A stretch of 64,000 nt of DNA from Enterococcus rotai (GTDB taxonomy: Bacteria; Bacillota; Bacilli; Lactobacillales; Enterococcaceae), in contig NZ_CP013655.1 of NCBI RefSeq assembly GCF_001465345.1, positions 3,473,091 to 3,537,090 on the forward strand. The letters run 5' to 3'. The notes under the pieces were generated by a model that saw nothing but the letters and a program-made list of their open reading frames with translations, was not told the DNA's origin and did no database searches. The position numbers and the translations under genes were made by a program. How positions within the stretch are numbered: the first letter of the stretch is position 1; each line of letters starts with the position of its first letter. Positions 14,118-47,255 of the stretch are shown here, piece after piece.

Positions 14118-14147
14118 ATTTAGCCTTAAGTCTCCTTACTTTTTAAT

Positions 14148-14936: not shown

Positions 14937-15075
14937 CTTAAATCATCTCCTGTATTCTATTTATCATCTCCATTCTATAATTATTCATTTCAACATACAT
15001 ATTATTTCAGTATTTACTCTTAATTGATACTGTAAGTTTTGGTTTAATCTTTTTGTTTTTTACTTTATGACTCTT

Positions 15076-15090
15076 AACTTAAATTAAGTT
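15076..15090. promoter_or_regulatory. 15-bp palindrome upstream of the recombinase gene
   Basis: AACTTAAATTAAGTT is a perfect palindrome about 140 bases before the 14936 start. It could be a binding site for a regulator or recombinase. Nothing else is seen in 14937-15199. Confidence 0.35.
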
Positions 15091-15199
15091 TAACATCAAA
15101 ATTATGTTGTTGTCTTAAAAGTGTTATCATCTTTCTAGATTTCTTTCTCTGATGTGCAATCAAGCTATATAATATCTAGCAAAATTTGCTTTCATTTTT

Positions 15200-16272: not shown

Positions 16273-16731
16273 TTATAATTCGCGCCTATACATCCTAGTT
16301 TTTGTAAGTTCTCCATCGCCTTGAACCATACCTATAAATTTCCAACCATACCTCTCGTAAAATGTAGAATGATCCGTTATAAGGTAAAGATAATCGTTTC
16401 CTTTGTTTTTGAAATCATCGCAAACGAATTGAAGCATGTTTCCTGCTAACCCTTGATTTCGATAAGAATCTTCAACATAGACAGCACATATGTTAGGTGT
16501 TAAATCTTTTCGATCATGAAAATCATTTTCTATGACTCCGATACCTGCTACAATTTTTTTGTCATCACAAACAATATACCATTGTGGAACAGAAGCAGTT
16601 GAATTTATGCATGCTTCCATGCTTTGAATGTACGCTTCAATTGGTATCTTCCATTTTTGATGAAACCATTCAGCTGCCTCTAGTAGAAGCTCAGGATACT
16701 CTTTTATTTTTACTATTGTAAAATCTTTCAT
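16273..16731 (-). CDS. GNAT-family N-acetyltransferase
   Basis: A 152-residue GNAT enzyme that would move an acetyl group from acetyl-CoA to a small molecule or protein amine. Seen: the beta4-alpha3 acetyl-CoA loop in the form VEDSYRNQGLAGNML (~87-101) and a late YLITDHSTFYERYGWKFIG segment with the usual Tyr. It has a good ribosome site (GGAG). It stands alone next to the accessory region edge. Substrate unknown. Confidence 0.85.
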   Translation of the reverse strand: MKDFTIVKIKEYPELLLEAAEWFHQKWKIPIEAYIQSMEACINSTASVPQWYIVCDDKKIVAGIGVIENDFHDRKDLTPNICAVYVEDSYRNQGLAGNMLQFVCDDFKNKGNDYLYLITDHSTFYERYGWKFIGMVQGDGELTKTRMYRREL

Positions 16732-16795
16732 TTTTTTCTCCGAATTCTGATTTTATTTATAGTATAACGTTATTTATACACTCTCACAATCTCTA

Positions 16796-16837
16796 ATAAA
16801 AAAACTGACAGATACACATAAGTGTTATATCTGTCAG
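16796..16837 (-). terminator. Terminator of the flavoprotein gene
   Basis: On the minus strand CTGACAGATA pairs with its complement (16805-16814 with 16828-16837) around an inner CAC/GTG stem, followed by seven T. It lies 15 bases past the stop of the 16852 gene. Confidence 0.85.
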
Positions 16838-16851
16838 CTTAATCAAACTAT

Positions 16852-26283: not shown

Positions 26284-29200
26284 TTATTTCTTTATCTGAC
26301 TCACTAATTTAACATAGTTTTCAGAACGGTCTTCTGCATCATCTTTTGTTTTCGTTAAAAGATCTTCTACAACTTCTTGATTGTCTTTAATCGTATGAAG
26401 TGCAGAGAAACGAGTTTGTTTTTCAAGGAAATCACGTATTTTAGAGAAATCGGCTTTTTTGTAGTCAATGACCATTGGATCTTTGCCTTTTTCAATAAGT
26501 TGTGGATTATAACGATACAATTGCCAATAACCTGACTCAACAGCTTCTTTCGCTAATGCCAATGTTTCGATCATTCCACCTTTAACACCATGGTTAATAC
26601 AAGGTGTGTAGCCAATGATCAATGATGGTCCAGGGTAGCGTTCCGCTTCGTCAATGGCTTTGATTGTCTGCATGGAATTAGCACCTAATGCAATTTGGGC
26701 AACGTAAACATTTCCGTAAGTCATCGCCATCATGCCTAGATCTTTTTTAGATGTTTGTTTTCCACCAGCTGAGAATTTTGCGATAGCTGCCGCTGGTGTA
26801 GCTTTAGATGTTTGACCACCCGTATTAGCATAGACTTCATTATCCATAACAAAAATATTGACGTCAGCTCCACTTGCTAAAACGTGATCGATCCCACTAA
26901 AACCAATGTCATAAGCCCAACCATCACCACCGACGATCCACTGACTGGTTTTTACAAGTAAATCACTTTGTTTATAGATTTTTTCTAAAAGTGGATTGGT
27001 TTGATACTCTTCGCTCAAGGCGGCTGCAAGTTTAGTTGCCCGTTGTTGTGTACCTTCACCTTCCAAATAATGCTCTAACCAATCTTCCATTAAAGCATGA
27101 AGCTCCTCTGTTCCTAGTTTTTTATCGACTGCTTCTTGCACTTGATCCGCTAAATATTGCCGTTTTGTTTTATTGGCTACATACATGCCGTAGCCGTATT
27201 CAGCATTGTCTTCAAACAGCGAATTACTCCAAGCAGGACCTTGACCGCATTCATTGGTCGTATAAGGTGTTACTGGAGATGACCCACCCCAAATAGAAGA
27301 ACAACCTGTTGCATTGGCCATCATCATACGATCCCCAAATAACTGAGTTAGTAGTTTGATATACGGTGTTTCGCCACACCCTTCACACGCACCTGAAAAT
27401 TCCATCAATGGCTGATTGAATTGAGAGCCTTTGACCGATAATTTTCGAACTGGGTTTTCTTTTTGCTGCAAAGTCATTGCAAAGGCCCAGTTGATTGCTT
27501 GTTCTTTTTGTTCTTCATAAGGTTTCATTAGAATGGCTTTTTCTTTGACGGGACAGGCTTGAACACACAAACCACAACCTGTACAATCTTCTAATGAAAC
27601 TTGAATCCGATACATCAAACCGTCAGCACCGCGCATTTCTCTAGCAACAAATCCTTCTGGTGCTTCTTCCATCTCAGCTTCATCTGCTAAAAATGGGCGA
27701 ATCGCTGCATGTGGACAAACAAAAGCACATTCATTACACATGGTACATTTATCCATCTGCCATTCCGGCACTTCTAAAGCAATCCCACGTTTTTCATAGG
27801 CTGCTGTGCCCATTGGCATTTCACCTGTTTTCATACCATTATCGATTAAATCACCAACCGTTAATTCATTTCCTTCTTGGCGATTGATTGGTTGTAGGAT
27901 ATTCGTAACATATTTAGGTAAGTTTAAATCTTTTTTCTCAGGTTCAATGACGATCGTTGCCCATTCTGATGGTACTTCGATTTTTTGAAGTGAATCAAAA
28001 GTTCTATCAATTGCTTGGTAGTTTTTATCGACGATCTCTTTTGATTTTTTGCCATACGTTTTTTGAACTTCTGCTTTTAGTAAAGGCATGTACTCTTCCC
28101 GCGTCATAATATCCGTTACTTCAAAAAACGCAGTAGACATTACCGTATTGATTCTGCGACCCAACCCAACTTCTCGCGCTAATTCAACAGCATTGATAAT
28201 ATAAAATTGAATATTATGTTTTGCAATGTATTGTTTTAGCTTCGCTGGAAGTAATCGATAGACTTTTTCCTTGTCCCAAATCGTATTCAATAAAAACGTC
28301 CCGCCGTCTTTCAAGCCTTTTAATAAATCATAATTGTGAATATAAGAAGCATTATGACAGGCAATAAAATCTGCTTGTTCTACTAAATAAGTTGAAGTGA
28401 TCGGTTCTTCTCCAAAACGTAAATGAGAAAGAGTCAAGCCGCCTGATTTCTTAGAATCATAACTAAAATAAGCTTGAGCATATAAATCAGTGTTATCACC
28501 GATAATCTTGATTGCCTGTTTATTGGCACCAACTGTTCCGTCTGATCCAAAGCCCCAGAATTTTGCTTGGAATGTTGAATTAGGGGTTAAATCTAACACC
28601 TCGCCTTGCGGCAATGAGCGATAGGTCACATCGTCTACGATTCCGATCGTAAAACGTTGTTTCAATTCAGCAAATGGTAATAATAGATGATCATAGACCG
28701 CTTTGATTTGATTAGGTGTCACATCTTTTGAGCCTAATCCATAACGCCCACCAATTACGATCGGACGATTTTCATGTTGATATAACGCGCTTTGAACATC
28801 TAAAAGCAATGGTTCTCCGTCAGCTCCAGCTTCTTTTGTTCTATCCAGAACCGCAACTTTTTCCACTGTTTTTGGTAATTTTTCTAATAGATTTTCTGTT
28901 GGAAATGGACGATATAAATGGATATTAATTAAGCCAACTTTACGACCTTGCTCATTTAAATAATCCACCGTTTGTTGAATAACTGGTGAGGCTGATCCCA
29001 TGGAAATAATGACTTCTGTTGCATCATCCGCACCATAATAGTCTGTAAGATCATAATTCGTACCACGTAATTCATTGATTTGATTCATATACTTTTGAAC
29101 GATTCTTGGCATTGCTTCATAATTGGCATTCACTGTTTCTCTTTGTTGAAAATGAATATCTGGATTTTGAGCTGTTCCCGAAACTGTCGGATGATTTGGG

Positions 29201-29823
29201 TTCATCCCCCTTTTTCTAAAGCGGTCCACTGCATCTTGATCCAGCATTCCTTTTAAATCAGCGTAATCCAATACTTCGATTTTTTGTAATTCATGACTCG
29301 TTCTAAAGCCATCAAAGAAATTGACGAAAGGTAAGCTACCTTCGATACTAGCTAAATGTGCCACTGCGGAAAGATCCATCACTTCTTGTACACTGGATTC
29401 GGCCAACATACAAAAACCAGTTTGGCGAGTTGCCATAACATCCCCATGGTCCCCAAAAATACTCAAAGCACTTGTCGTGATCGCTCTTGCTGCTACATGG
29501 AAAACACCTGGTAAAAGTTCACCAGCTATTTTATACATATTAGGGATCATCAATAGCAAACCTTGTGAAGCTGTATAGGTTGTTGTTAGAGCACCTGTTT
29601 TTAATGAACCATGAACAACACCTGCAGCTCCAGCTTCTGATTGCATTTCAATGACTTGGACTTTTTGTCCATAGACATTTTTCAAGCCAGTTTCTGCCCA
29701 TTCATCGACTAATTCTGCCATCGTAGAACTTGGTGTGATTGGATAAATCGCTGCTACTTCAGTAAAGGCATAGGAAATATACGCTGCGGCTGTATTTCCG
29801 TCCATTGTCTTCGTTTTTTTCAT
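26284..29823 (-). CDS. nifJ: Pyruvate:flavodoxin/ferredoxin oxidoreductase
   Basis: A single-chain, ~1180-residue enzyme that oxidises pyruvate with CoA to acetyl-CoA and CO2 and reduces flavodoxin or ferredoxin. Seen in order: pyruvate-binding domain I (YPITPSSTMAE, TASQGLLLM), domain II, two 4Fe-4S motifs CTMCNECAFVCP (~690) and CTGCGLCVQACP (~755), a Cys-rich CEGCGETPY patch, and the TPP site GDGWAYDIG with NTGGQTSKATP (~970-1010). ATG 29823 is chosen over GTG 29832, which overlaps the ribosome site. It follows nfnB by 22 bases. The upstream flavodoxin gene is the probable electron acceptor. Oxygen-sensitive by family. Confidence 0.95.
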   Translation of the reverse strand: MKKTKTMDGNTAAAYISYAFTEVAAIYPITPSSTMAELVDEWAETGLKNVYGQKVQVIEMQSEAGAAGVVHGSLKTGALTTTYTASQGLLLMIPNMYKIAGELLPGVFHVAARAITTSALSIFGDHGDVMATRQTGFCMLAESSVQEVMDLSAVAHLASIEGSLPFVNFFDGFRTSHELQKIEVLDYADLKGMLDQDAVDRFRKRGMNPNHPTVSGTAQNPDIHFQQRETVNANYEAMPRIVQKYMNQINELRGTNYDLTDYYGADDATEVIISMGSASPVIQQTVDYLNEQGRKVGLINIHLYRPFPTENLLEKLPKTVEKVAVLDRTKEAGADGEPLLLDVQSALYQHENRPIVIGGRYGLGSKDVTPNQIKAVYDHLLLPFAELKQRFTIGIVDDVTYRSLPQGEVLDLTPNSTFQAKFWGFGSDGTVGANKQAIKIIGDNTDLYAQAYFSYDSKKSGGLTLSHLRFGEEPITSTYLVEQADFIACHNASYIHNYDLLKGLKDGGTFLLNTIWDKEKVYRLLPAKLKQYIAKHNIQFYIINAVELAREVGLGRRINTVMSTAFFEVTDIMTREEYMPLLKAEVQKTYGKKSKEIVDKNYQAIDRTFDSLQKIEVPSEWATIVIEPEKKDLNLPKYVTNILQPINRQEGNELTVGDLIDNGMKTGEMPMGTAAYEKRGIALEVPEWQMDKCTMCNECAFVCPHAAIRPFLADEAEMEEAPEGFVAREMRGADGLMYRIQVSLEDCTGCGLCVQACPVKEKAILMKPYEEQKEQAINWAFAMTLQQKENPVRKLSVKGSQFNQPLMEFSGACEGCGETPYIKLLTQLFGDRMMMANATGCSSIWGGSSPVTPYTTNECGQGPAWSNSLFEDNAEYGYGMYVANKTKRQYLADQVQEAVDKKLGTEELHALMEDWLEHYLEGEGTQQRATKLAAALSEEYQTNPLLEKIYKQSDLLVKTSQWIVGGDGWAYDIGFSGIDHVLASGADVNIFVMDNEVYANTGGQTSKATPAAAIAKFSAGGKQTSKKDLGMMAMTYGNVYVAQIALGANSMQTIKAIDEAERYPGPSLIIGYTPCINHGVKGGMIETLALAKEAVESGYWQLYRYNPQLIEKGKDPMVIDYKKADFSKIRDFLEKQTRFSALHTIKDNQEVVEDLLTKTKDDAEDRSENYVKLVSQIKK

Positions 29824-29845
29824 TTTTCTCACCTTTTATCTTTCC

Positions 29846-31273
29846 TCAAACTTTTGTTGTTACGGGCGTTTTCTTTTTTTCTCGTACATACTTGTCGATT
29901 TCTACAGCAGCAACTTTTCCAGCACCCATGGCTAAAATCACTGTTGCTGCACCTGTAACAATATCTCCGCCGGCAAAGACGCCGGGAATCGATGTTGCTC
30001 CCGTTTTTGGATCCGCCTCAATGTAACCCCATTTTGTTAATGTAAGTTCTGGGAAAGTGGATAATAAGACTTTATTGGACCCTTGACCGATTGCTTCGAT
30101 CACTGTGTCAGCTTCGATAATAAACTCACTATTTTTGATTGGAACAGGGCGACGTCTTCCAGACTCATCTGGTTCACCAAGTTCCATTTTGACGCATTTC
30201 ACACCAGTTAAATCACCGGTACCATTATTTATATATTCGATAGGGTTGGTCAACCAATGATACATAATATCTTCCTCAACAGAGTGGTGATATTCTTCAA
30301 TACGTGCTGGCAGCTCCTCCAGTGATCTGCGGTAGACAATGCTGACATGTTCAGCACCTAAACGTTTAGCTGAGCGTGCGGCATCCATCGCTACATTCCC
30401 ACCACCGATCACGACAACATTTTTCGATTGTTTCATCGGTGTATCATATTTGGGAAATTCATAGCTATGCATCAAATTGATCCGTGTTAAATATTCGCTA
30501 GAAGAATAGACGCCATTTAGCGCTGTACCCGGAATTCCCATAAAATTAGGTGCTCCTGCACCAACAGAAATATAACAAGCATCAAAATCGTTCATGATCT
30601 CATCCATCGTGATCGTTTTTCCAACGACAATATTTGTCTCGATCGTTACACCTAACGCTTCAATACTTTCAATCTCTTTTTTTACGATTCTTTTAGGTAA
30701 TCTAAATTCTGGAATACCATACGTCAAGACACCGCCAGAATCATGTAGTGCTTCATAAACAATGACCTCATAGTTCATTTTGGCTAAATCTCCTGCAACC
30801 GTTAAGCCCGATGGACCAGAGCCGATCACAGCGATTCGCCCGATTTTTGGTTGATCACTTTGAACCTGTTTAGAAAAATCTTGGTTTTCTAAAGCCCAGT
30901 CAGCAACCAAACGTTCAAGTTTGCCAATTGCGACTGGTTCAAAATTTTTCGCCATCCCTAATTTACAAACTTGCTCACATTGTTTTTCCTGAGGGCAAAC
31001 TCGACCGCAAATAGCTGGAAGATTTGTATATTTTCCTAATACATCAGCGGCTTCTTGCATATGACCTTCTTTGATTGCAAGGATAAATCCAGGAATATCG
31101 ATCATCACAGGACAACTGGTGATACAAGGGGCATTTTTACATTGTAAACACCTAATTGCTTCTGCTTGTCCTTCTTCGATTGTATAGCCTAAACAAACTT
31201 CAGAGAAATTTGTTTTGCGAAGAGCAGGATCTTGTTCAGTAATGGGTGTTTTTGTTCTGCTTCTTCTAGCCAT
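29846..31273 (-). CDS. nfnB: NfnB-like NAD(P)H oxidoreductase large subunit
   Basis: A 475-residue flavoprotein of the GltD/NfnB family. Seen: N-terminal 4Fe-4S ligands CLQCKNAPCITSCP (~39-52) and CGRVCPQEKQCEQVC (~90-104), FAD fingerprint GSGPSGLT near 154, NADP site GGGNVAMDAARSA near 291, and a C-terminal FAD segment FAGGDIVTGAATV. Its gene overlaps that of the NfnA-like subunit by 8 bases. NfnAB couples reduced ferredoxin and NADH to NADP+ reduction (electron bifurcation or confurcation). A glutamate synthase small subunit is the older label, but no GltB partner is here, and the NfnA neighbour argues against it. Confidence 0.88.
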   Translation of the reverse strand: MARRSRTKTPITEQDPALRKTNFSEVCLGYTIEEGQAEAIRCLQCKNAPCITSCPVMIDIPGFILAIKEGHMQEAADVLGKYTNLPAICGRVCPQEKQCEQVCKLGMAKNFEPVAIGKLERLVADWALENQDFSKQVQSDQPKIGRIAVIGSGPSGLTVAGDLAKMNYEVIVYEALHDSGGVLTYGIPEFRLPKRIVKKEIESIEALGVTIETNIVVGKTITMDEIMNDFDACYISVGAGAPNFMGIPGTALNGVYSSSEYLTRINLMHSYEFPKYDTPMKQSKNVVVIGGGNVAMDAARSAKRLGAEHVSIVYRRSLEELPARIEEYHHSVEEDIMYHWLTNPIEYINNGTGDLTGVKCVKMELGEPDESGRRRPVPIKNSEFIIEADTVIEAIGQGSNKVLLSTFPELTLTKWGYIEADPKTGATSIPGVFAGGDIVTGAATVILAMGAGKVAAVEIDKYVREKKKTPVTTKV

Positions 31274-32105
31274 GATTTCCCACCTGCGCTTTTTGGTAAT
31301 CTGTTAAACTATTTTCTTCCTCAGTCTTATATTGTTTCATACGACTGATAAACTCTTCCCAATTGACCTCAGTTCCTTTAAATTCTGGACCGTCAACACA
31401 AGCAAATTTAATACTTCCATCGATCGTTACCCGGCAACCACCACACATACCTGTTCCATCGATCATGATTGGGTTTAATGAAACGTAAATCGGTAATTCG
31501 TGATTTGTGGCAGTCATCGTACAAAATTTCATCATGATGCTAGGACCAATCGCCCAGCTACAATTGACTGTTTCTCTAGCAATCACTTGTTCCATTGCTT
31601 CAGTTACGAGTCCTTTCATACCAAGCGTGCCGTCATCTGTTGTAATGATCAACTCATCGGAATATTCACGACACTCGTCTTGAAGAATCACTAATTCTGC
31701 TGTTTTGGCACCAAGAATCGTAATAACTCGATTCCCCGCTTTTTTCAATTCTTTAACAATTGGAAAAATTGCAGCGATACCAACCCCACCGCCTACGATC
31801 ATTACGGTCCCGTAATTTTTTATTTCGGTCGGCATGCCAAGTGGTCCTGTCAAATCTAAAATAGCATCGCCAACCTTTAGAGTACCAAGTTCAGCAGTTG
31901 TTTTACCGATTACTTGAAACACCAAACGAATACTGCCGCTAGAAGGGTCTGTATCTGCAATCGTCAAAGGAATCCGTTCGCCAACTTCATTGATACGGAG
32001 AATGACAAATTGCCCTGGTTGTGCTTTTGCTGCGATTCGAGGAGCTTCGATCCAAAAATCATATTCATTTTTGGAAATATGAACCTTTTTGGTTATCTTA
32101 TACAT
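31266..32105 (-). CDS. nfnA: NfnA-like FAD/NAD and 2Fe-2S subunit
   Basis: A 279-residue ferredoxin-NADP reductase/dihydroorotate-dehydrogenase-K-type protein. Seen: FAD-binding domain with RIPLTIAD (~44-51), NAD-binding GGGVGIAAIFPIVKELK near 104-120, and the 2Fe-2S ligand motif DGTGMCGGCRV with a later Cys in KFACVDGPEF near 215-240. It forms the partner of the NfnB-like protein. The ribosome site is weak. The set of flavodoxin, NfnA, NfnB and PFOR lets the cell move electrons between pyruvate, flavodoxin, NADH and NADPH. Confidence 0.88.
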   Translation of the reverse strand: MYKITKKVHISKNEYDFWIEAPRIAAKAQPGQFVILRINEVGERIPLTIADTDPSSGSIRLVFQVIGKTTAELGTLKVGDAILDLTGPLGMPTEIKNYGTVMIVGGGVGIAAIFPIVKELKKAGNRVITILGAKTAELVILQDECREYSDELIITTDDGTLGMKGLVTEAMEQVIARETVNCSWAIGPSIMMKFCTMTATNHELPIYVSLNPIMIDGTGMCGGCRVTIDGSIKFACVDGPEFKGTEVNWEEFISRMKQYKTEEENSLTDYQKAQVGNHG

Positions 32106-32169
32106 ATGGATTACCGTTAATGAATAGCCTCATTCATTTTTCCTTCTTTCATATGATATCTGCTTATCT

Positions 32170-32613
32170 CTATAACCCAGCCGTTAGTTCCTGAACGAAT
32201 TTTTTTAATGCTTCAACATCTTCATCTTCTGCATTATTTTCAATTTCAACTGTTTCGGCAACTTTTTTTGCACCAGATTTTTCTAAAGCCGCTACAAAAT
32301 CATGGGCTGATTTGCAGAACAAATCACCATACTCACGATCTCCAGAACCAACAACGCCAAAAATTTTTCCAGTTAAATCCTTTTCCTCCAAGTCATCATA
32401 GAAATCCTCAAATTCAAATGGCAATTCACCATCGCCATAAGTATAAGTAGCAAGCACGCAAGCATCTGCATCATCAAAAAAGTCAACATCTACTTCTGAA
32501 CACTCTTCTCTTTCTACATCAAATCCCGCTTCTTGTACGGTACTTTCTATGATTTCTGAAATCTCCTCGGTGTTTCCTGTCATGCTCGCATAAATGATTT
32601 TAACCAATGCCAT
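32170..32613 (-). CDS. Flavodoxin
   Basis: A 147-residue short-chain flavodoxin. Seen: the FMN phosphate loop SMTGNTEE (residues 10-17), the TYTYGDGELPFEFEDF loop near 57-72 and the GSGDREYGDLFC loop near 90-101 that flank the FMN ring. The protein is highly acidic, as usual for an electron carrier. It is the first gene of the flavodoxin-nfnA-nfnB-nifJ transcript. Its likely promoter, 215 bases upstream, carries the same operator as the purine cluster promoters. It may feed electrons to xanthine dehydrogenase partners, YgfK or the double-cubane reductase. Confidence 0.93.
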   Translation of the reverse strand: MALVKIIYASMTGNTEEISEIIESTVQEAGFDVEREECSEVDVDFFDDADACVLATYTYGDGELPFEFEDFYDDLEEKDLTGKIFGVVGSGDREYGDLFCKSAHDFVAALEKSGAKKVAETVEIENNAEDEDVEALKKFVQELTAGL

Positions 32614-32828
32614 ATTTACTCATCCTCTCAACTTTTTTACATAATATTTTAAAGTATAAAAAGATTGATTTGTAACCCTTTTCATTCTTCTCATACTTAA
32701 TATCAATAAAACTACGCATCTGTCTTACCTGTTAAGGATCTCTTAATACAAATTACCTTTTTCACATATTAAAAAAATCGCTAAAACGCTTTCTTTTTTT
32801 AATTCAAAATCATGTAAAAACTTCACTT

Positions 32829-32890
32829 ATACTATAACATAAACTACCACTTTAAAACAATATTTTTTAGGTAAAAAAAATAATTTTTAG
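32829..32890 (-). promoter_or_regulatory. Flavodoxin operon promoter with CTAAAAA-type operator
   Basis: On the minus strand, CTAAAAA repeats start at 32890 and 32870 (20 bp apart), then TGTTATAGT gives an extended -10 (TATAGT, complement of 32831-32836). No normal -35 is seen; the repeats occupy that place. TACCTAAAAAATATT (complement of 32859-32873) is identical to a stretch at 60997-61011 before ssnA. The long leader to 32613 has a second possible promoter (TTACAA, 18 bases, TAAAAT near 32650-32680). No gene fits in 32614-32909. Confidence 0.6.
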
Positions 32891-38242: not shown

Positions 38243-40819
38243 TTATTTCTTTTTCTTTTGATAAAAGGTATCTTCCATAGGTAATGTGGGTCTTAGTTTT
38301 CCATCAAGTGCATAGTAAGCACCGGCCAAAGCTGGTGCTGTCGGGATCGTCGCTAATTCTCCCACACCTTTGATTCCATAAGCCAAGCCATCATGAATAT
38401 TGTCCGCTTGAACTAAAATTGTTTCGATTGGTGGCACTTGAGCAGCATTTAGCAAGCCTAGCGTAGCGTATTTTGCTTTGACATAACCATCTTCCATGAC
38501 AAATTTCTCGGTCAAAGCGTAACCCATCCCCATTACGATCCCACCTTCGATTTGCCCTTCTGCTGCCTTAGGATTGACGACTTGCCCCATATCATATGCT
38601 GCCACAAATTTTTCGACTTTGCCTTTTTCATCTAGAATCGCAACTTCTGCTGCATAACCATAGCCAGCATGACTAACAGGACTCTTCTTATCGTTAATCA
38701 AAGGATCTGTTTTAGCTGAATATTCTCCATAAAACTCTTGTCCTTCTAAATCAGACAACGCACGCCCCATATCAAGTTCATAGCGTAGTTGCATCGCTGC
38801 TCTTCTGGTTGCTTCACCTGTAAATAAGGATTGGCGAGAGGCTGTTGTTGTACCGGAATCTGGCGTTCGCCGCGTATCTGGTGCTTCGGCAATAATCATT
38901 TCTGGCGGTAGATCCAAGGTTTCACACGCAACTTGTGTTGTCACGGTCGCCATCCCTTGCCCAATACATGCCGCACTAGTTCTAACATGAACCTTACCGT
39001 CTTCAACTGAAACAATGCAACGACCAACATCTGATAATCCAACACCGATCCCGCTATTTTTAAAGAAACAAGAAATCCCAGCAATTTCAGCATTTTCATA
39101 GGCATCCTTAACAGCCAATAACGTTTCTTTCAATGCGGCATTTTTTGAAACCAATTGACCATTTGGTAAAGAATCTCCAGGTTCTACTGCATTTTTATAG
39201 CGAATAGCCCATTGAGAAATACCGACTTTTTCGGCTAAAAGATTAAGATTATTTTCAATTGCAAAAGCTGTTTGGCAAACCCCAAACCCTCTGAAGGCAC
39301 CAGCTGGTGGATTGTTTGTATACACTGCATACCCTTCGACATCGATGTCTTGGTATTTATAAGGACCTGCCGCATGTGTGCATGCTCGTTGAAGAACAGG
39401 ACCACCTAAAGAAGCATAGGCTCCCGTATCTGCATATATGACAGCTTTCATAGCCGTTAGATTTCCTTGTGCATCACAACCTGTCGTGAAGTCCATCTCC
39501 ATGCCATGACGTTTTGGATGGATCATTAAGCTTTCTTGTCGGCTAAGTAAAACTTTGACTGGTTTTTGTAAACACCAAGCCGCAAGAGCAGCATGATGCT
39601 GCACACTCATATCTTCTTTTCCGCCAAAACCGCCGCCGACTAATTTCGCTTGGACATGAATATTCTCCTTTTTCACCCCTAACATACGAGCAACTTCTCG
39701 TTGTTCATCATAGATACTTTGACCTGCACTATACAGTAAAATACCGTCCTCACCTTCAGGCATTGCAATGGCACATTCAGGTTCCATAAATGCATGCTCA
39801 TTGATCGGAACTGAATAATGTTGGGTTACAACATATCCAGATGCCGCCAACTGCTCATCCGCATTACCTCGAATAAGATGTTCATGAGATAAAATATTGC
39901 CTTTTTCATGAATCAACGGTGCATCTTCTACTAATGCGGCCTCACATGAAGTTATTGGTGTCAGTTCTTCATAGGTAACTTCTACTAATTCTTTGATTTC
40001 TTCCAAAGCTTCTCTTGTTGTAGAAACAACCAAGGCCACTGCATCCCCAACATAACGCGTAGTATCCCCAACTGATATCATAACGTCCCAATCAGAAATA
40101 AATTCTAAATGACCGATTTTATTGTTTCCAGGAACATCTTTTGCTGTCAGCACTGATACACATTCTGGATGTTCAACGGCTTTACTCGTGTCGATTTTCA
40201 ACACTTTCGCTCTTGGATAGGCACTGCGGACAGCCGATGCATGAAGCATTCCTTCAATTGTGATGTCATCTACATATTGTCCTGTTCCTAAGGTTTTTTC
40301 AACAGCATCTACTCGTTTGAAGTCTTCTCCTAACTTTCCATTTGACGGCTCTTCTGGAATGCTCAATTTTTCACGAAACATTTTAGCTGCTAGTTGAATT
40401 GCTTCAACAATTTTGACATACCCTGTACAACGGCAGATGTTCCCACGAATCGCTTTGCGAACGTCTTCATCACTAGGTTCTGTTTTTTTGTTCAATAATC
40501 CGTGAGCTGAAATAACAATACCAGGAATACAATAACCGCATTGAACAGCGCCAGTCTTAGCAAAAGCATAGGCATAAACATCTTTTTGATGTTGGTCCAA
40601 TCCTTCGATCGTGACAATTTCTTTTCCATCTACCTTTTCTAAGCTAAATAAACACGCTTTGGAAACCCTTCCATTTACTAATACTGAACAAGCACCACAA
40701 GAACCTTGATTACAACCATCTTTTGTCCCAGTCAACCTTAAATCTTCACGAAGAAAGTCCATTAACTTTTTATTCGTGTCACAGGTCTCTGTCTTACCAT
40801 TTACAACGAATGAATACAT
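38243..40819 (-). CDS. Selenium-dependent xanthine dehydrogenase (FAD-less, 2Fe-2S + Mo)
   Basis: An 858-residue molybdenum hydroxylase predicted to oxidise xanthine or a related purine. Seen: plant-type 2Fe-2S site Cys36/41/44/56 (GCNQGSCGAC), helical 2Fe-2S site Cys94/97/129/131 (CGYC, CRC), then two Mo-binding domains with VGGGFGGKED, GAFRGFG and late GIKGVGELAT, the Glu of the last being the usual catalytic base. There is no FAD domain, so electrons must leave through another protein. The selenium dependence is inferred from selD, yqeB and yqeC next door. ATG 40819 is preferred over TTG 40837. Its promoter carries the CTAAAAA operator. Confidence 0.92.
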   Translation of the reverse strand: MYSFVVNGKTETCDTNKKLMDFLREDLRLTGTKDGCNQGSCGACSVLVNGRVSKACLFSLEKVDGKEIVTIEGLDQHQKDVYAYAFAKTGAVQCGYCIPGIVISAHGLLNKKTEPSDEDVRKAIRGNICRCTGYVKIVEAIQLAAKMFREKLSIPEEPSNGKLGEDFKRVDAVEKTLGTGQYVDDITIEGMLHASAVRSAYPRAKVLKIDTSKAVEHPECVSVLTAKDVPGNNKIGHLEFISDWDVMISVGDTTRYVGDAVALVVSTTREALEEIKELVEVTYEELTPITSCEAALVEDAPLIHEKGNILSHEHLIRGNADEQLAASGYVVTQHYSVPINEHAFMEPECAIAMPEGEDGILLYSAGQSIYDEQREVARMLGVKKENIHVQAKLVGGGFGGKEDMSVQHHAALAAWCLQKPVKVLLSRQESLMIHPKRHGMEMDFTTGCDAQGNLTAMKAVIYADTGAYASLGGPVLQRACTHAAGPYKYQDIDVEGYAVYTNNPPAGAFRGFGVCQTAFAIENNLNLLAEKVGISQWAIRYKNAVEPGDSLPNGQLVSKNAALKETLLAVKDAYENAEIAGISCFFKNSGIGVGLSDVGRCIVSVEDGKVHVRTSAACIGQGMATVTTQVACETLDLPPEMIIAEAPDTRRTPDSGTTTASRQSLFTGEATRRAAMQLRYELDMGRALSDLEGQEFYGEYSAKTDPLINDKKSPVSHAGYGYAAEVAILDEKGKVEKFVAAYDMGQVVNPKAAEGQIEGGIVMGMGYALTEKFVMEDGYVKAKYATLGLLNAAQVPPIETILVQADNIHDGLAYGIKGVGELATIPTAPALAGAYYALDGKLRPTLPMEDTFYQKKKK

Positions 40820-40870
40820 TTTTTCTTTACACCTCAATTTCTGTTATAATTATAGCTTTTTATCACTATG

Positions 40871-40928
40871 ATTATACCATAAAACTTTAGTCTAAAAATT
40901 ATTATTTAGCAAAAAAAATATTTTTTAT
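40871..40928 (-). promoter_or_regulatory. xdh promoter with CTAAAAA-type operator
   Basis: On the minus strand an extended -10 TGGTATAAT (TATAAT, complement of 40871-40876) has no good -35. The -35 position is filled by the operator block 40892-40928, which on the plus strand starts CTAAAAATTATT, the same 12 bases as the flavodoxin block. An activator or repressor could act directly on polymerase here. Confidence 0.65.
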
Positions 40929-41681
40929 TCACTTTTGTTGAATACCGATCAATGCAGCCCCAATCGAGCCTGCATATTGAGATAGTTCTTGATCATAGTA
41001 TACTTCTTTTTGAGTATATTCAGCAACTAAATCTACAACTTTCTTACTATGAGACAAACCGCCAGAAAAAAAAATCGGACCTTGATCAGGATTGATCTGT
41101 CGATGTTGATTACTAATACGAGCTGCGATCGAATGCAAGACTCCTAAAGCGATATTTTCTCTTTTTTCGCCTTTTCCAATCAAGCTAATGACTTCTGATT
41201 CTGCGAATACGGTGCACATACTATTGATTTTTACTGGTTCAGCTAAGGCCACAAAGGGATCAATCAGATCGATGCTTTCCCCTAATGTCCGCATCAGTAC
41301 TTCAACAAAGCGTCCTGTTCCAGCGGCACATTTATCATTCATGTTAAAATCTAAGACATGCCCGTCAGTGTTCATTCTGATCACCTTACTATCTTGCCCA
41401 CCGATATCGATCACATTTTGAATTCCAGGACTTAGATAGGATGCCCCTTTAGCATGACAAGTGATTTCCGTAACTGCTTTATCAGCTTTTAACAGTTTGC
41501 GACCATAGCCTGTTGTAATCAATTTACAGGGTTCATTTCCACTTAGTTTTGTCACAACTTCTGCAGCTGCTCGTTTAGGGTCACCTGAAGTTAGTACCAA
41601 GTATTTTTTCACCAGATTGTTTTGTTCAAAAAGAACGCCTTTCGTTGTCGTCGATCCACTATCAAGACCAATTACTTTCAT
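40929..41681 (-). CDS. ATP-dependent activator of a double-cubane/2-hydroxyacyl-CoA-dehydratase-type reductase
   Basis: A 250-residue ASKHA-fold ATPase (HgdC/DCCP-reductase family). Seen: phosphate loop DSGSTTTKG (7-15), IGGQDSKV near 93-100, and Cys118 (NDKCAAGTGRF) and Cys156 (MCTVFAESE), the two ligands by which each monomer of a dimer holds one bridging 4Fe-4S cluster. It would use ATP to push a very low-potential electron onto its partner, whose gene overlaps by 4 bases. It probably takes electrons from flavodoxin. Confidence 0.9.
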   Translation of the reverse strand: MKVIGLDSGSTTTKGVLFEQNNLVKKYLVLTSGDPKRAAAEVVTKLSGNEPCKLITTGYGRKLLKADKAVTEITCHAKGASYLSPGIQNVIDIGGQDSKVIRMNTDGHVLDFNMNDKCAAGTGRFVEVLMRTLGESIDLIDPFVALAEPVKINSMCTVFAESEVISLIGKGEKRENIALGVLHSIAARISNQHRQINPDQGPIFFSGGLSHSKKVVDLVAEYTQKEVYYDQELSQYAGSIGAALIGIQQK

Positions 41682-42847
41682 GATGAGCGTGCCTCTAACA
41701 TTTCGATAAAAGCTGTCACTCGCGTATTGATTTGCTCGATATCTGCTGTAGAATAGTCTGTTTCTAAATATAAATACGGTACATTTTTTTCAGATTGGCA
41801 AAAACGCCGAACCTTCAATGCTTCGATCGAATATGGATGGCAGGATTGTAGCACCATATCTAAAACCCCATCCACTTGATAGTCATCGATCATTTGGCTT
41901 AATAAATCAAAGCGACTGGTATTATTAGACATACAGGCACACCCAATATCGATATATTTCTCTGCTAGGGCTTCATAAACGTCTTCATTCTCTTCATCGA
42001 CTAGCCGTTCAACAGCCTTAGCTACTGTACAATTTTCAAATCCTACGATGGTTCCACCATTTTCTTCGACTGCACGAATCACTTTTTCCGTTACACCCCC
42101 CATTGGTGAACCAGTGATTAAAATTCTAGGTTTTCCATTTGGCTGATGGTTTTCGGGATATTGTGCGATGATTTTTGCAGTTGTATCCTCTAATTTTTGG
42201 ATCAGACTTTCCTTTTCAAAAGTATAATTTGCGCCATACATCACTTTAAAAATTTCTGAGCCTTCAATTGCAGGCGGATTTAGTTTCCCCAGTCCATAAA
42301 ACTTTTTTCTAGCTGCTCGTTCTCTATTTTTTAGACGAACCGCTTCTTGAATGCGTTCTTCTGTGATCTCCACATCAAGAAATGACTCTAATTTTTCTTT
42401 AAAGCGAATGATTTCATCTTTCCATAAGCCAAACGCTGCCTCTGAATTTCGTGCGTTTGGTAAATTCATTAAATACAGTGGTTTGAATTCTTCCATGTAT
42501 TCATACATTTTTTTCTTTCCATCACAAGTTGTTTCCCCTACAACTAAATCGGAAAAATAGAAAAATGGGCATTTATCCGTTTTCCCAAAACCATAACTGG
42601 ATTTGATCAACGGACAAAGATTTCTAGGTAGATCCTCTTCTGCAGCTGAAATCGTTTCATCTGATGTCGAACAGAGGCTGATTTGGACAGCATCAGCTGC
42701 TAAGACGATTTCTTCTGGCATGAAAGTACAATACACACCAACAACCGGTACTCCTTGTTCTTTTAGTTCTTTTACTTGAATAAAACCTTGACGTCTAGCA
42801 TCATCGAACTCCGCAACTATTTCTGGTAATTCTGTTTTGATTTGCAT
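41678..42847 (-). CDS. Double-cubane-cluster-type reductase (HgdB/DCCP family)
   Basis: A 389-residue 2-hydroxyacyl-CoA dehydratase D-component family protein without a second dehydratase subunit. Seen: conserved Cys at 59 (SLCSTSDE), 78 (NLCPLIKSSYG), 108 (GETTCDGKKKMYE) and later CACMSNN and QSCHPYS. The GETTCDGKKKMYE stretch is a family signature. The stand-alone pairing with its activator matches double-cubane cluster proteins, which reduce small molecules such as acetylene or hydrazine in vitro but have no known natural substrate. In this setting a purine-pathway intermediate or a Se/Mo maturation step is possible; inference. Confidence 0.85.
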   Translation of the reverse strand: MQIKTELPEIVAEFDDARRQGFIQVKELKEQGVPVVGVYCTFMPEEIVLAADAVQISLCSTSDETISAAEEDLPRNLCPLIKSSYGFGKTDKCPFFYFSDLVVGETTCDGKKKMYEYMEEFKPLYLMNLPNARNSEAAFGLWKDEIIRFKEKLESFLDVEITEERIQEAVRLKNRERAARKKFYGLGKLNPPAIEGSEIFKVMYGANYTFEKESLIQKLEDTTAKIIAQYPENHQPNGKPRILITGSPMGGVTEKVIRAVEENGGTIVGFENCTVAKAVERLVDEENEDVYEALAEKYIDIGCACMSNNTSRFDLLSQMIDDYQVDGVLDMVLQSCHPYSIEALKVRRFCQSEKNVPYLYLETDYSTADIEQINTRVTAFIEMLEARSS

Positions 42848-42873: not shown

Positions 42874-43986
42874 TTATTGTGCATTTGTCAGAATCATTTT
42901 GACTTGTTCTGCTGTCGGTTCAACATGGTAGAATAGCTTGTAAAACTCGTTAACGGTCTCTTCCATATTTAGTTTGTATTGTTCAGGGTAAACTAACGCC
43001 CCCAACCACTGAATGCCAATGATCCGATTGACAGACGGCGGTGAACTAATGAAGTTATAGGGTGCAGTTGGTACTTGATAAACCTTGCCTGCTTTGACCG
43101 CTGTTAATTCTTGCCAAGACTCATCCGTTTTGATTTGATCATAGACAGCTTTTGTCTCAGCTAAAATATAATCTGGTTGCCATTGAATTAGCTGTTCCAT
43201 CGAAATAACGGTTCCGCCACCTTTTGACACAACATCAACACCTGTTGCCGCATTTTTTGCGCCAATCTCATCAATTACTTGAGCATGAAATGACCCTTCA
43301 GCATTTGTGTTTAGTCCAGCATTTCCGGCTGCATAATAGATACTTTTTTGCTCTGATTCTTTTAGTGAAGAACGAACACTATCAGCTTTTTCTATAACCT
43401 GTTGACAATAGGAAGCAAGTTTTTCTGTTGTTTGTGTGTTTCCTAATAATTCACCTAATTTCTGGTAGGTTTCTGGCATATTTTTTAAATTTGCTTCAAT
43501 GAAAAGCGTGGGAATATTGATTTGCTCTTGCAATTTATCCATATCTTCTTTGACTGTTTTTTTTGCCTCACCGATATCGATAATGACATCTGGTTCAGCA
43601 GCACTCAAAGCTTCCATATTTAAGCTAGCATTTTTTCCGTAAAATTGTCCAAATTCTGGTAATTTCTGATATTTTTTATCAATAAATTCTTTCGCTTCTG
43701 ACGAAAAAGGGCTGGCTAAACCAACAAGTAAATCAGGGGAGCTAGTATACAATACAATTTGAGCCAGTGGTCCAGAAGGGGCTATTTTATTGATCTGTGT
43801 TGGGATGATTACCTCACGCCCAGCAGAATCAACAAAAGTGCGTGTCCCATCTGACTGTTTGTTTTCGGAACGAATAGCTGTTTGCGTTTTTTCAGTTTCA
43901 TTGGCTTTTTTTTCGTTAGTAGTGCAACCAATCGTTGTAACTAGTGCTAATCCTAATACTAAAAGCAAATTTATCTTTCTTTTCAT
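42874..43986 (-). CDS. ABC transporter substrate-binding lipoprotein, FepB/BtuF type
   Basis: A 370-residue lipoprotein with signal and Cys21 (VTTIGC), followed by a two-lobe binding domain of the type used for siderophores, cobalamin, haem and, in the MolBCA system, molybdate or tungstate. Seen: RTFVDSAGREVIIP (~49-62), DVIIDIGEAK, and YNFISSPPSVNRIIGIQWLG near the C-terminus. It is followed by the double-cubane gene and preceded by the ATPase and permease genes. Since it is embedded in a molybdenum enzyme locus downstream of a ModE-like gene, molybdate or tungstate is a good guess for the substrate. Confidence 0.85.
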   Translation of the reverse strand: MKRKINLLLVLGLALVTTIGCTTNEKKANETEKTQTAIRSENKQSDGTRTFVDSAGREVIIPTQINKIAPSGPLAQIVLYTSSPDLLVGLASPFSSEAKEFIDKKYQKLPEFGQFYGKNASLNMEALSAAEPDVIIDIGEAKKTVKEDMDKLQEQINIPTLFIEANLKNMPETYQKLGELLGNTQTTEKLASYCQQVIEKADSVRSSLKESEQKSIYYAAGNAGLNTNAEGSFHAQVIDEIGAKNAATGVDVVSKGGGTVISMEQLIQWQPDYILAETKAVYDQIKTDESWQELTAVKAGKVYQVPTAPYNFISSPPSVNRIIGIQWLGALVYPEQYKLNMEETVNEFYKLFYHVEPTAEQVKMILTNAQ

Positions 43987-44016
43987 TAAAATTCTATCCT
44001 TTCTATTTCAATCGAT

Positions 44017-44784
44017 TTATTTTTTTGTTGGCAAACAGATTCTTTTTTCAGTTGAAGCTATTGTATGTACAGTGATCGGTACACGATAAATGGCCTCTAA
44101 CTGTTGGCTCGTTAAAATCGTTTTGGGTATTCCTTGTAATAGTTGACCCTCTTGTAAAACTAAGACATAGTCAGCATATTGAAGTGCGTGATTGGGATCA
44201 TGGGTCGATTGAATAATCAAATAACCTTGCGTTGCTAGTGTTTGAATCATTTCTAAGACCATTATCTGATTGCCGTAATCAAGATTAGCACAAGGCTCAT
44301 CCATAATAATGATTTTACTCTGCTGAGCCACTGAACGAGCAATGATCACAAGTTGTTGCTCTCCTCCACTTATTTCTGAAAAAATACGATTCTTTAAATG
44401 CGTGATATTGAGTGCGACTAAGGCCGCTTCTGCCAACTCATTTTCAGCTGTTCCAGGTTGCTGATAATTTTTTAATCTAGCAGTTGTGCCCATTAAGACC
44501 ATTTCAAATACAGTAAAATGAAAAATACCTCGTTGTTTTTGCGGAATATATGAAATCAACTGAGAAAGCTCGTTTCTTGAGCACTGTTGAATCGAACGAT
44601 CATTGATTTTAACACTTCCCAAACTTGGCTCCAACACTCTTAGCAAACATTTAAATAACGTACTTTTCCCCACACCATTTTTTCCTAATAAACAAACTGA
44701 TTGTCCATAATCTAAAGTAAATGAAATGTCGTTCAATATTTTTTGCTGTTTATAGGCAAATGCTAAATCAATAACTTCAAGCAT
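44017..44784 (-). CDS. ABC transporter ATPase, FepC/BtuD type
   Basis: A 255-residue ABC ATPase that powers the importer. Seen: Walker A GKNGVGKST (34-42), a Q-loop IPQKQRG, signature ISGGEQQ near 138, Walker B IIIMDEPCANLD near 160, and the switch His in STHD near 195. It is 30 bases before the binding-protein gene and 12 bases after the permease gene. Substrate specificity is set by the other subunits. Confidence 0.93.
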   Translation of the reverse strand: MLEVIDLAFAYKQQKILNDISFTLDYGQSVCLLGKNGVGKSTLFKCLLRVLEPSLGSVKINDRSIQQCSRNELSQLISYIPQKQRGIFHFTVFEMVLMGTTARLKNYQQPGTAENELAEAALVALNITHLKNRIFSEISGGEQQLVIIARSVAQQSKIIIMDEPCANLDYGNQIMVLEMIQTLATQGYLIIQSTHDPNHALQYADYVLVLQEGQLLQGIPKTILTSQQLEAIYRVPITVHTIASTEKRICLPTKK

Positions 44785-44796
44785 TGAAATTCCTCC

Positions 44797-45828
44797 TCAC
44801 TGTCTAACTGAACGATTATTTTTAGCAATCAATAAAAGAAAAATCGGTGCACCGATAAATGAAGTTAAAATTCCGATCGGTATCTCACTAGTTGTAATCA
44901 AGCGTGAAAAATCATCTACAAATAACAGAAAAGTACCGCCTAATATAGCAGTCATCGGAATACTATAGCGATAATCATTGCCAACTAACATCCTTGAAAA
45001 ATGCGGTACAACCAACCCTACCCAACCAATCAGTCCGCTAACCGATACTGCACTTGCTGTAATCAAGGTCGCAGCCAGAATCAAAATCACGCGTAAAACA
45101 CGACTGTTTACTCCTAAACTCAACGCTTCTTCTTCTCCCAGAGAAATCACATTTAAGCGCCAGCGTAATAAAAAAATGGGCATCATTCCTACTAAAATCA
45201 AAGGGGCAGCAAATACAACATTTTGCTTATTGATCGAAGATAAGCTGCCCATTAACCAATAGGTTATTGCCGGTAAAGTATTTGTCGGATCCCCTACCAA
45301 TTTCAAAAAGGAAACAGCTGAAGAAAAAAGTGAGCCAATCATCATACCAATCAAAACCATGTTTAAAACCGAATCAGTGCGCAAAAAACGACTCATTAAA
45401 AGAACCGCACCTACAGCTAATAATCCAAAAATGAAAGACAACGAAATCACCTGTTCATAGGTCAATGAAAAAAACAATCCTATAGCCGCACCAAAAGCAG
45501 CACCTTGTGAAGCACCTAAAATATCTTGTGAGACCATTGGATTTTGAAACAAAGCTTGATAAGTTGCCCCAGCTACAGAAATACCGCCACCGATCACCAC
45601 TGCCATAATAATTCTAGGAAAACGAATCTTAAACAAAATCGTCTCAACTTGACTGCTCCAAGTTTGCTCTAAAGGGATTATTTTATTCAAAACAACCTTA
45701 AAAAAATCGTCCATCGCAATCGGAAACTTCCCTAAAAAAAAGGAAATTATAAAGACCAGTAGAAAAAGCAAGAAGGAAGCTAAAAGAATGATTTTTTTCT
45801 GTTTCGTTGTCGACTGTTTGTTTTCCAC
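44797..45828 (-). CDS. FecCD-family ABC permease
   Basis: A permease with about ten membrane helices, of the FecCD/BtuC family; the importer would act as a homodimer with two ATPases. Seen: LFKIRFPRIIMAVVIGGGISVAGATYQA split across residues 64-91, LGASQGAAFG, and GLIGWVGLVVPHF near the coupling helix. GTG 45828 is the likely start because GGGGTG lies 6 bases upstream; a GTG at 45837 lies inside that site. Normal substrates of the family are metal chelates, but molybdate/tungstate importers (MolB) share it, and the locus favours this. Confidence 0.9.
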   Translation of the reverse strand: MENKQSTTKQKKIILLASFLLFLLVFIISFFLGKFPIAMDDFFKVVLNKIIPLEQTWSSQVETILFKIRFPRIIMAVVIGGGISVAGATYQALFQNPMVSQDILGASQGAAFGAAIGLFFSLTYEQVISLSFIFGLLAVGAVLLMSRFLRTDSVLNMVLIGMMIGSLFSSAVSFLKLVGDPTNTLPAITYWLMGSLSSINKQNVVFAAPLILVGMMPIFLLRWRLNVISLGEEEALSLGVNSRVLRVILILAATLITASAVSVSGLIGWVGLVVPHFSRMLVGNDYRYSIPMTAILGGTFLLFVDDFSRLITTSEIPIGILTSFIGAPIFLLLIAKNNRSVRQ

Positions 45829-45852
45829 TAAATTCACCCCTATTGTTGACCG

Positions 45853-46872
45853 CTATCCCTTTGGTCTTTCCGCCCTTTTTTCAATCAACTCACCGGCAAC
45901 ACTAATTGCCAGTTCAGCGGGTGTCTCTGATTTTATTTTTAGGCCGATCGGCATATTGATTCGTTCAATGTCTTCCATTGAAAAGCCGCTTTCTTTTAAT
46001 TTTTTGACTTGGACCGCGATCTTTTGCTTACTGCCCATGACACCGATGTAATGTGCTGGTGTTTCTAATAACTGTTTCGCTATTAGAAAATCAAATTGAT
46101 GGCCTCGTGTCATCACGATGGCATAATCTGCCTCTGTAATTTGGATCGATGCGTCAATATTACTCAAATCAACGACCATTCGCTGATCGGCATCTGGAAA
46201 AACTGCTTCGGTTAAAAATTGTTCCCGATCATCTAAAACAACACAATAAAAATCTATTGTTTTTAAAATAGGAAGCAACGCCTGAGCAACATGACCACTA
46301 CCAAAAACGTAAACTTTTCCAAGTTGTAGCAATGCTTCCACTGAATAAATCCGTTCATTCAATTTTACTTCTGATAAACCAGATTTAAACTTCTCTTCTT
46401 TTAATTTAGCTGGTATATTTCCGATTAATCCTGTTTCTACGCTATACACCCCAAAACCATTTTCTCTTTCAGCATTGATTTCAGTGATCAGCCAACATTG
46501 CTGATTACGGTTAAAATGCTGGATAACTTCTTCGCAAATAGCTTGAACAGAAGCATTTTGCCAACTAAGATATTGAAAAAACAGCGCCACATTACCACCA
46601 CAAATCATACCCAGATCTACAACATCATTTGGTGCTAAAATAAAGGTTTCTGCTCGAGATCGTTGTGCTTTCAGAACCTCTTTCGCAATTTTTTCTGCGC
46701 GAAACTCTACTGCACCACCGCCAATCGTGCCATTTATCCGACCAGATTTATCAACTAGCATACGAGCACCAGCGGCTCTAGGTGTCGATCCTGAACTTTC
46801 AGTAACCGTAACTAAAACCGTATCTTCTCTTTGTTTGATTGCTTCATTTATTCGTAGAAAAAGTTCTTTCAT
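45853..46872 (-). CDS. xdhC: XdhC/CoxI-family molybdenum hydroxylase maturation factor
   Basis: A 339-residue XdhC-type protein that binds the molybdenum cofactor and helps sulfurate (here possibly selenate) and insert it into the hydroxylase. Seen: N-terminal XdhC_CoxI domain with SSGSTPRAAGARMLV and IGGGAVE (~26-55), MICGGNVALFF near 89-99, then a C-terminal Rossmann domain with VFGSGHVAQAL near 192 and the GVMGSKQK segment near 270. It overlaps the ModE-like gene by 4 bases and precedes the importer genes. Confidence 0.93.
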   Translation of the reverse strand: MKELFLRINEAIKQREDTVLVTVTESSGSTPRAAGARMLVDKSGRINGTIGGGAVEFRAEKIAKEVLKAQRSRAETFILAPNDVVDLGMICGGNVALFFQYLSWQNASVQAICEEVIQHFNRNQQCWLITEINAERENGFGVYSVETGLIGNIPAKLKEEKFKSGLSEVKLNERIYSVEALLQLGKVYVFGSGHVAQALLPILKTIDFYCVVLDDREQFLTEAVFPDADQRMVVDLSNIDASIQITEADYAIVMTRGHQFDFLIAKQLLETPAHYIGVMGSKQKIAVQVKKLKESGFSMEDIERINMPIGLKIKSETPAELAISVAGELIEKRAERPKG

Positions 46873-47255
46873 TCTCTTTCCTCCAACTCTACTGATTCTA
46901 AATCTAATTCATCACTAAAAATCTCTGCAAAATATTGATTGGTGATTTGATACGTTTTCTTTTGAAAAAGCAAAAACTTTGCTGTTAATTTTTTTCCTTG
47001 GCTCGTTACGGTGGAACCGCCGCCGTTATTCCCACCTACACTTTTATTGACTAGCGGATAGCCTAGTTCTTCCTCAGCTTTTTGGATCATCCGCCAAGCT
47101 TTGTTATAAGACATTCGCATCTGTTTAGCGGCAGTATTTAGTGAACCTGTTTGAGAAATCCGTTGGAGTAGTTCAACGACGCCAGGTCCAAAAAAAATGC
47201 GATTTGTCCGTAATTTCAAATTGAGCGTATAATTAAAGGCTTCTTGCTCCTTCAT
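46869..47255 (-). CDS. ModE-like molybdate-type DNA-binding protein
   Basis: A 128-residue protein matching the N-terminal winged helix of ModE: ISQTGSLNTAAKQMRMSYNKAWRMIQKAEEELG is spread over residues 33-65, followed by PLVNKSVGGNNGGGS. There is no molybdate-binding TOBE domain, so it senses metal in another way or is a short ModE-type regulator. Its ATG is right behind an ideal ribosome site. The inverted repeat at 47271-47293 directly in front of it resembles a ModE box, so it may control its own operon with xdhC and the importer. Confidence 0.85.
   Translation of the reverse strand: MKEQEAFNYTLNLKLRTNRIFFGPGVVELLQRISQTGSLNTAAKQMRMSYNKAWRMIQKAEEELGYPLVNKSVGGNNGGGSTVTSQGKKLTAKFLLFQKKTYQITNQYFAEIFSDELDLESVELEERE

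Follow-up and report, generated by a model that had tools for sequence, protein, structure and literature searches.

Three promoters in the window, a stretch of 64,000 nucleotides from Enterococcus rotai at G000:C1:3473091-3537090, carry copies of an 18-bp palindrome, CTAAAAAATATTTTTTAG, whose exact copies are confined, among 105 genomes of the family, to the promoters of a purine operon (ssnA) and of a molybdenum operon (mobA). The palindrome is probably bound by a single-domain ModE-type protein encoded in the purine cluster itself (46869-47255), which would couple molybdenum supply to purine breakdown. An initial annotation of the window had proposed one operator and one regulator for the flavodoxin/pyruvate:flavodoxin oxidoreductase (PFOR) operon and the purine cluster. 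The first part holds, as the operator is both shared and conserved; the second is probable, since the two sets of genes share it. The palindrome, the opposite orientation of the words shared between promoters, the fourth promoter and the ModE-type protein are all absent from that annotation.

The purine cluster begins with ssnA, ygfK, a hydantoinase gene, dpaL, ygeY, ygeW, and genes for carbamate kinase and xanthine permease. It continues with the ModE-type helix-turn-helix (HTH) gene, xdhC, an ABC transporter of the B12/siderophore family, a double-cubane reductase with its activase and the selenium-dependent xanthine dehydrogenase (xdh), and ends with mocA, sclA, selD, yedF, yqeC and yqeB, followed by the genes for flavodoxin, SudB-like and GltA-like proteins and PFOR. 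The ABC transporter (binding protein, ATPase and permease, window 42874-45837), flanked by xdhC on one side and the double-cubane reductase genes on the other, could be a MolBCA-like molybdate importer. The double-cubane-cluster reductase and activase occupy 40929-42847, and the reductase is a possible low-potential electron donor. The features of concern here are as follows.

26284-32613, reverse strand: probable target operon 1, flavodoxin, SudB-like, GltA-like and pyruvate:flavodoxin oxidoreductase genes, an operon judged from gene order
32831-32839, reverse strand: extended -10 TGTTATAGT of the flavodoxin-PFOR operon, read by eye and kept in the alignment
32853-32890, reverse strand: flavodoxin operator, distal box 32873-32890 and promoter-proximal box 32853-32870, starts 20 bp apart
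38243-40837, reverse strand: probable target gene 2, selenium-dependent xanthine dehydrogenase, then mocA-sclA-selD-yedF-carrier-yqeC-yqeB
40871-40879, reverse strand: extended -10 TGGTATAAT of xdh, read by eye and in the genus alignment
40892-40928, reverse strand: xdh operator, stronger palindrome 40892-40909 and weak distal box 40911-40928
46869-47255, reverse strand: single-domain ModE-type HTH protein of 128 aa, the proposed regulator, assigned from TIGR00637 and structure matches
51092-60786, reverse strand: probable target operon 3, ssnA-ygfK-hydantoinase-dpaL-ygeY-ygeW, for purine ring opening, an operon judged from gene order
60965-60973, reverse strand: extended -10 TGGTATAAT of ssnA, read by eye and in the genus alignment
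60980-61017, reverse strand: ssnA operator, palindrome 61000-61017 and weak box 60980-60997
61223-61861, forward strand: YheO-type PAS/HTH protein of 212 aa (PF08348, PF13309), divergent from ssnA

The initial annotation had described blocks of CTAAAAA units about 20 bp apart at flavodoxin, xdh and ssnA. All three blocks are where it had placed them and have that spacing, but the units are the half-sites of the palindrome, which in most cases has a weaker companion box at a distance of 19-20 bp. The ssnA box at 61000-61017 is an exact palindrome, and its weak partner, 20 bp away, has TTTTTTAG at its end. Both flavodoxin boxes differ from the palindrome at 3 positions, and the two xdh boxes, spaced 19 bp apart, have 2 (40892-40909) and 3 mismatches (40911-40928). 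The words said to be shared between blocks were also located: the 15-mer TACCTAAAAAATATT common to flavodoxin and ssnA has a single copy on each strand of the window, at 60997 (+) and 32859 (-), and CTAAAAATTATT, common to flavodoxin and xdh, lies at 40892 (+) and 32879 (-). Each word is oriented oppositely, relative to the promoter, in the two promoters that share it because the element is a palindrome.

Reading the sequence by eye also bears out an extended -10 at all three promoters and finds no convincing -35 at the normal distance in any of them, again as had been claimed. The distance from the end of the block to the -10 hexamer is 16 bp for flavodoxin, 15 bp for xdh and 9 bp for ssnA, so that the ssnA block is rotated by roughly half a turn of the helix relative to the flavodoxin and xdh blocks. 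The cre-like words AAGCGTTTT, TGTAAGCGATTTCTAT and TGCAAGCGCTTTTTT (about 32780-32795, 60824-60840 and 60910-60925), which follow the operators of flavodoxin and ssnA on their downstream side and are mostly kept in the genus alignment, are probable CcpA sites.

At up to 3 mismatches the window holds 6 matches to the palindrome, while 100 shuffled sequences gave a mean of 0.38 and a maximum of 3, none of them reaching 6; five of the six are the blocks described above and the sixth (3037) lies in a coding frame. Counting weak matches over the whole genome was rejected as evidence, as the palindrome has 39 sites when up to 3 mismatches are allowed and the reversed pattern has 41. With weak matches at the genome background, the signal is carried by exact copies, tandem pairs and conservation. 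The initial annotation had named many equal matches in unrelated regions as grounds against the operator, and this is true of the weak matches but false of the exact ones: the 3.75-Mb genome contains two exact palindromes, one at ssnA and the other at mobA. Genome-wide there are two tandem pairs spaced 19-20 bp apart (flavodoxin and xdh), whereas random placement of the sites would give about 0.002, a figure that ignores AT-rich clustering. Three of the four remaining 2-mismatch sites in the genome fall within long open frames and one (928223) lies between frames.

A motif search of the genome, as had been proposed, was made with a sequence-only profile built from 24 sites and run on 22 genomes of the genus, scoring 150 of about 10,000-17,000 first-look candidates per genome. 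All matches better than E 0.0105 fell at the four promoters, in genomes that encode the ModE-type protein; the training sites score by construction and match places were compared by eye. The four promoters stand out in the E. rotai genome, with nothing else up to E 0.189. One genome with the ModE-type protein, G013, has its best match (E 0.019) away from the four promoters.

The exact palindrome at mobA, G000:C1:2251884-2251901, lies outside the window, ahead of an operon whose genes were read in G000 and encode, in order, a MobA-like protein, a channel of the formate/nitrite family, MobB-like, NuoE-like and NuoF-like proteins, formate dehydrogenase alpha, a MoeA-like protein, MoaC, MoaA, a MOSC-type protein, a MogA-like protein, a second MoeA-like protein, ModA, ModB and a ModC-like protein. 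The operon serves the molybdenum cofactor, molybdate uptake and formate dehydrogenase. Formate dehydrogenase alpha, MoaC, MoaA and ModB passed their curated cut-offs and MobA, the channel and ModC did not; the match to MobB is weak, and sequence alone gave the second MoeA its name. The promoter consists of TTGACT, a spacer and TATAAT, and the palindrome begins 16 bp past the hexamer, at about +11 to +28 for an assumed transcription start. No Rfam family reached its gathering score in the window or at the mobA locus, and hence no molybdenum-cofactor riboswitch was found at that threshold. Homology to MobA extends upstream of the first ATG (L054 4952, G000:C1:2251951); the likely start codon of mobA in E. 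rotai is an ATT, at whose place the aligned genome G018 has an ATG.

Among the 13 genomes of the genus with mobA, the box at this promoter is exact in ten, differs at 3 positions in G013 and G018, and at 5 in G021. Beyond these, it has 1 mismatch in G022 and 4-7 in G060, G062, G094 and G096-G098, with G104 left out of the count for its 64 bp of upstream sequence. The genus alignment has 11 of 18 columns invariant in the block compared with 19/155 elsewhere, and the promoter is also well kept, with 20 of the 40 columns ahead of the box invariant.

Conservation of the blocks in other enterococci had been suggested as a check; at flavodoxin, xdh and ssnA alike, the block can be aligned across all 13 genomes of the genus that have the cluster, E. 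rotai included. The flavodoxin boxes have 2-4 mismatches each and the xdh palindrome 1-2 throughout, while the ssnA palindrome is exact in 10/13, has 1 mismatch in G014 and is degenerate in G003 and G013. Across these 13 genomes the invariant columns number 29/38 (flavodoxin), 19/35 (xdh) and 29/38 (ssnA) within the blocks, and 47/226, 7/40 and 62/193, respectively, elsewhere upstream. Within the blocks conservation is lowest in the distal box of xdh, and at ssnA 15 of the 40 columns ahead of the block, towards the YheO gene, are likewise invariant.

The 105 family genomes contain 22 exact copies of the palindrome, 12 at ssnA and 10 at mobA promoters by comparison of positions by eye and none elsewhere, and the reversed control pattern occurs in one genome. 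An exact copy is present in 14 of the 22 family genomes with a clear ModE-type match (E below 1e-29) and in none of the other 83. Over 395 genomes of the order, a set that overlaps that of the family, the exact copy occurs in 12/21 genomes with the protein and 2/374 without it (Fisher 1e-15, a figure in which related species are not independent). In both exceptions the copy lies within a coding frame; the reversed pattern is found in four of these genomes.

The ssnA-YheO intergenic box extends beyond the genus, with no mismatch in Vagococcus acidifermentans, 1 in V. allomyrinae, and 2 each in V. elongatus and Loigolactobacillus rennini. At xdh, V. allomyrinae and V. elongatus each have a box that differs at 3 positions, and no box at up to 4 mismatches was found at xdh of V. 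acidifermentans. A 40-kb stretch of Enterococcus faecalis has, at up to 3 mismatches, three matches in all, at ssnA, xdh and flavodoxin, where 0.16 are expected. An E. faecalis record labelled as a plasmid (NZ_CP142821.1) carries the whole purine cluster together with prfA, manA and thymidine kinase, and is probably a piece of chromosome. In six genomes with a ModE-type protein of just 44-48% identity (G023, G040, G060, G062, G096 and G098) the layout at ssnA is kept with 3-5 mismatches, the CTA of the distal half being altered. The boxes that could be read at xdh and flavodoxin of these genomes also have 3-5 mismatches; this count leaves aside xdh of G096, because the gene is interrupted, and flavodoxin of G060, G062 and G096, which falls beyond the stretches read. 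In G092 flavodoxin comes after gltA and the best match there has 4 mismatches.

Among 61 more distant ModE-like loci (L188-L248), the 14-bp core occurs within 1 mismatch in two, and both were set aside: the core at L209, upstream of a ModE-like gene, lies in a G+C-rich inverted repeat that resembles a terminator, and that at L242 is inside a MoaA-like frame. Twelve loci were scanned whole at up to 4 mismatches; L201 (29% GC) gave two matches, L209 one, and L180, L197, L217, L218, L233, L240 and L244 none.

The identity of the ModE-type protein rests on its N-terminal winged HTH, which matches TIGR00637 (E 1.5e-20, 73.1 bits, under the curated cut-off of 98.5 bits); a profile of 18 homologues matches the structures 2ijl, 1b9m and 1o7l with E 3.7e-18 to 1.3e-14. 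HTH_1 was the sole domain found, with no molybdate-binding Mop/TOBE domain in the protein. Among the observations that count for this protein as the binder are that the fourth target, marked by the exact operator, is a molybdenum operon and that the gene sits in the purine cluster itself; a site at molybdate transport and cofactor genes, as at mobA in ten of the 13 genus genomes, is what a ModE would be expected to have. Against it count the score below the ModE cut-off, the missing molybdate domain, an operator unlike that of E. coli ModE, the degenerate mobA boxes of G013, G018, G021, G060, G062 and G096-G098, and the xdh of V. acidifermentans that has no box.

Escherichia coli ModE senses molybdate and acts as both repressor and activator. 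The present system resembles it in a homologous winged HTH (1b9m, 1o7l, E about 1e-14), in a palindromic, AT-rich operator and in its targets, which in E. coli are molybdate transport, cofactor synthesis and molybdoenzymes. It differs in having no molybdate-binding domain and in that CTAAAAAATATTTTTTAG has other letters and another length than the E. coli consensus, ATCGNTATATA-N6-TATATANCGAT (given in the portion of PMC545781 available); comparison of the two by eye finds no E. coli-type operator here. Another parallel in the same portion of that paper is the single-domain ModE of Desulfovibrio, which consists of the DNA-binding domain alone and has its own divergent predicted operator, CGGTCACG-N14-CGTGACCG, upstream of molybdate transport operons (PMC545781). 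Both systems have a DNA-binding domain only and a divergent box of their own, predicted in each case, but the box in E. rotai is a palindrome of A-tracts and stands before purine, flavodoxin and mob-fdh-mod genes.

A search of the E. rotai genome for PF03459, the TOBE domain that binds molybdate, gave no match (controls match in 12 of 14 genomes), so molybdate sensing in the style of E. coli cannot operate here in the same way. The same genome has modABC and several molybdoenzymes. A more specific version of the ModE reading, which we hold tentatively, is that the HTH lost its sensor domain, recognises an A-tract palindrome of its own and works as a two-way switch blind to free molybdate. It might then repress mobA-type genes from the downstream site and activate xdh, purine and flavodoxin-PFOR genes from the tandem sites. 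Conceivable signals are the supply of cofactor or of selenium, or a partner protein.

The YheO-type protein was the binder favoured by the initial annotation. We consider it an unlikely one, as the exact operator marks a molybdenum operon and the genomes that separate the two proteins favour ModE. The proposal would make this PAS-HTH protein, a regulator of the YheO/DauR type (PF08348, PF13309), a PAS-like purine sensor for the purine, flavodoxin and molybdenum operons. Its gene, divergent from ssnA, adjoins the strongest site, and is found in all 14 family genomes with the exact site. Within the genus, intact YheO and ModE genes occur in the identical 13 of 22 genomes, with a YheO fragment also in G016. 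Across the family, ModE is present in 22 genomes, a YheO orthologue (50% identity or more) in 24 and the two together in 21, so that the separating cases are one against two.

The one is G094, a metagenome-assembled genome (95% complete) with ModE (61% identity), xdh and mobA and no YheO match, in which the xdh box has 3 mismatches and is the sole such match in 18.5 kb (0.01 expected), while the mobA box is weaker (5 mismatches). The two are G099 and G103, where YheO (58% and 50%) is divergent from flavodoxin; neither ModE nor mobA gave a match in them, and no purine genes were found in the 20-kb stretches read. A YheO operator would be expected where the gene diverges from its presumed target, yet the flavodoxin-YheO interval of these genomes has no match at up to 4 mismatches. 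The adjacency makes a link of YheO to flavodoxin/PFOR likely and suggests that the protein acts on flavodoxin through another, separate site; this role may be the older one (L125 from G099, L126 from G103). A further genome, G097, has the purine cluster, YheO and boxes as in its sister G098 but no ModE match, which speaks for YheO; the frame ahead of its xdh (L124) reads as both ends of ModE with the middle, including the HTH, missing. On these few cases the distribution of the operator departs from that of the YheO gene and favours ModE.

Less likely again is a third regulator, encoded elsewhere in these genomes. It gains some ground in that both ModE and YheO are put forward from neighbourhood and co-occurrence, but it would need the same patchy spread over Enterococcus, Vagococcus and Loigolactobacillus. 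A last reading needs no specific regulator and takes the blocks for AT-rich UP elements, or for curved A-tracts, belonging to strong promoters. It would agree with the A- and T-tracts that precede the extended -10 elements but is very improbable given the symmetry with conserved CTA/TAG ends, the position of the mobA site downstream of its promoter, a profile scan that singles out four promoters of the genome, and matches that stand out even at loci of 42% and 48% GC.

If the ModE-type protein is the regulator, it would occupy the palindrome as a dimer, and the promoters in the window would take up one more dimer at the weaker box, two helical turns away. These sites stand in for a -35 upstream of the extended -10, an arrangement that could serve activation or the occlusion of RNA polymerase. 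At mobA, where a consensus promoter is closely followed by the site, a block to transcription, and so repression, would be expected. The regulator would in this way couple the supply of molybdenum cofactor, molybdate and formate to selenium-dependent xdh, the purine-opening operon and electrons from flavodoxin/PFOR.

Related selenium- and molybdenum-dependent purine genes have predicted or neighbouring regulators of the sigma54 type, DioR in Clostridioides difficile and YgeV in E. coli (PMC11448449 and PMC2276186, in the parts available). The promoters here are, unlike those, sigma70-like with an extended -10, and no enhancer-binding protein was found among the purine-cluster proteins scanned. 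In E. faecalis, EF2572 is listed as ModE within EF2556-EF2577 around selD (PMC2432076), and a transposon screen indicates that genes of both clusters, EF2572 included, contribute to growth (PMC7701990); the available parts of these two papers make no mention of a shared operator. The initial annotation knew of no description of this operator, and we likewise found no such shared site in the accessible open-licence literature, nor a paper there on the regulation of these genes.

The anaerobic breakdown of uric acid in gut bacteria is relevant to gout. In Enterococcus termitis UAD1, formate serves as co-substrate for the degradation of urate, which is incomplete without it (PMC12507026, in the portion available). 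The proposed regulon fits this physiology, because UAD1 uses formate with urate and the fourth operon encodes formate dehydrogenase. If the proposal is true, a regulon of four promoters that takes in purine opening, flavodoxin/PFOR, formate dehydrogenase and the supply of molybdenum would explain the link between formate and urate, and control of the pathway would be testable in E. faecalis, which has the three cluster sites.
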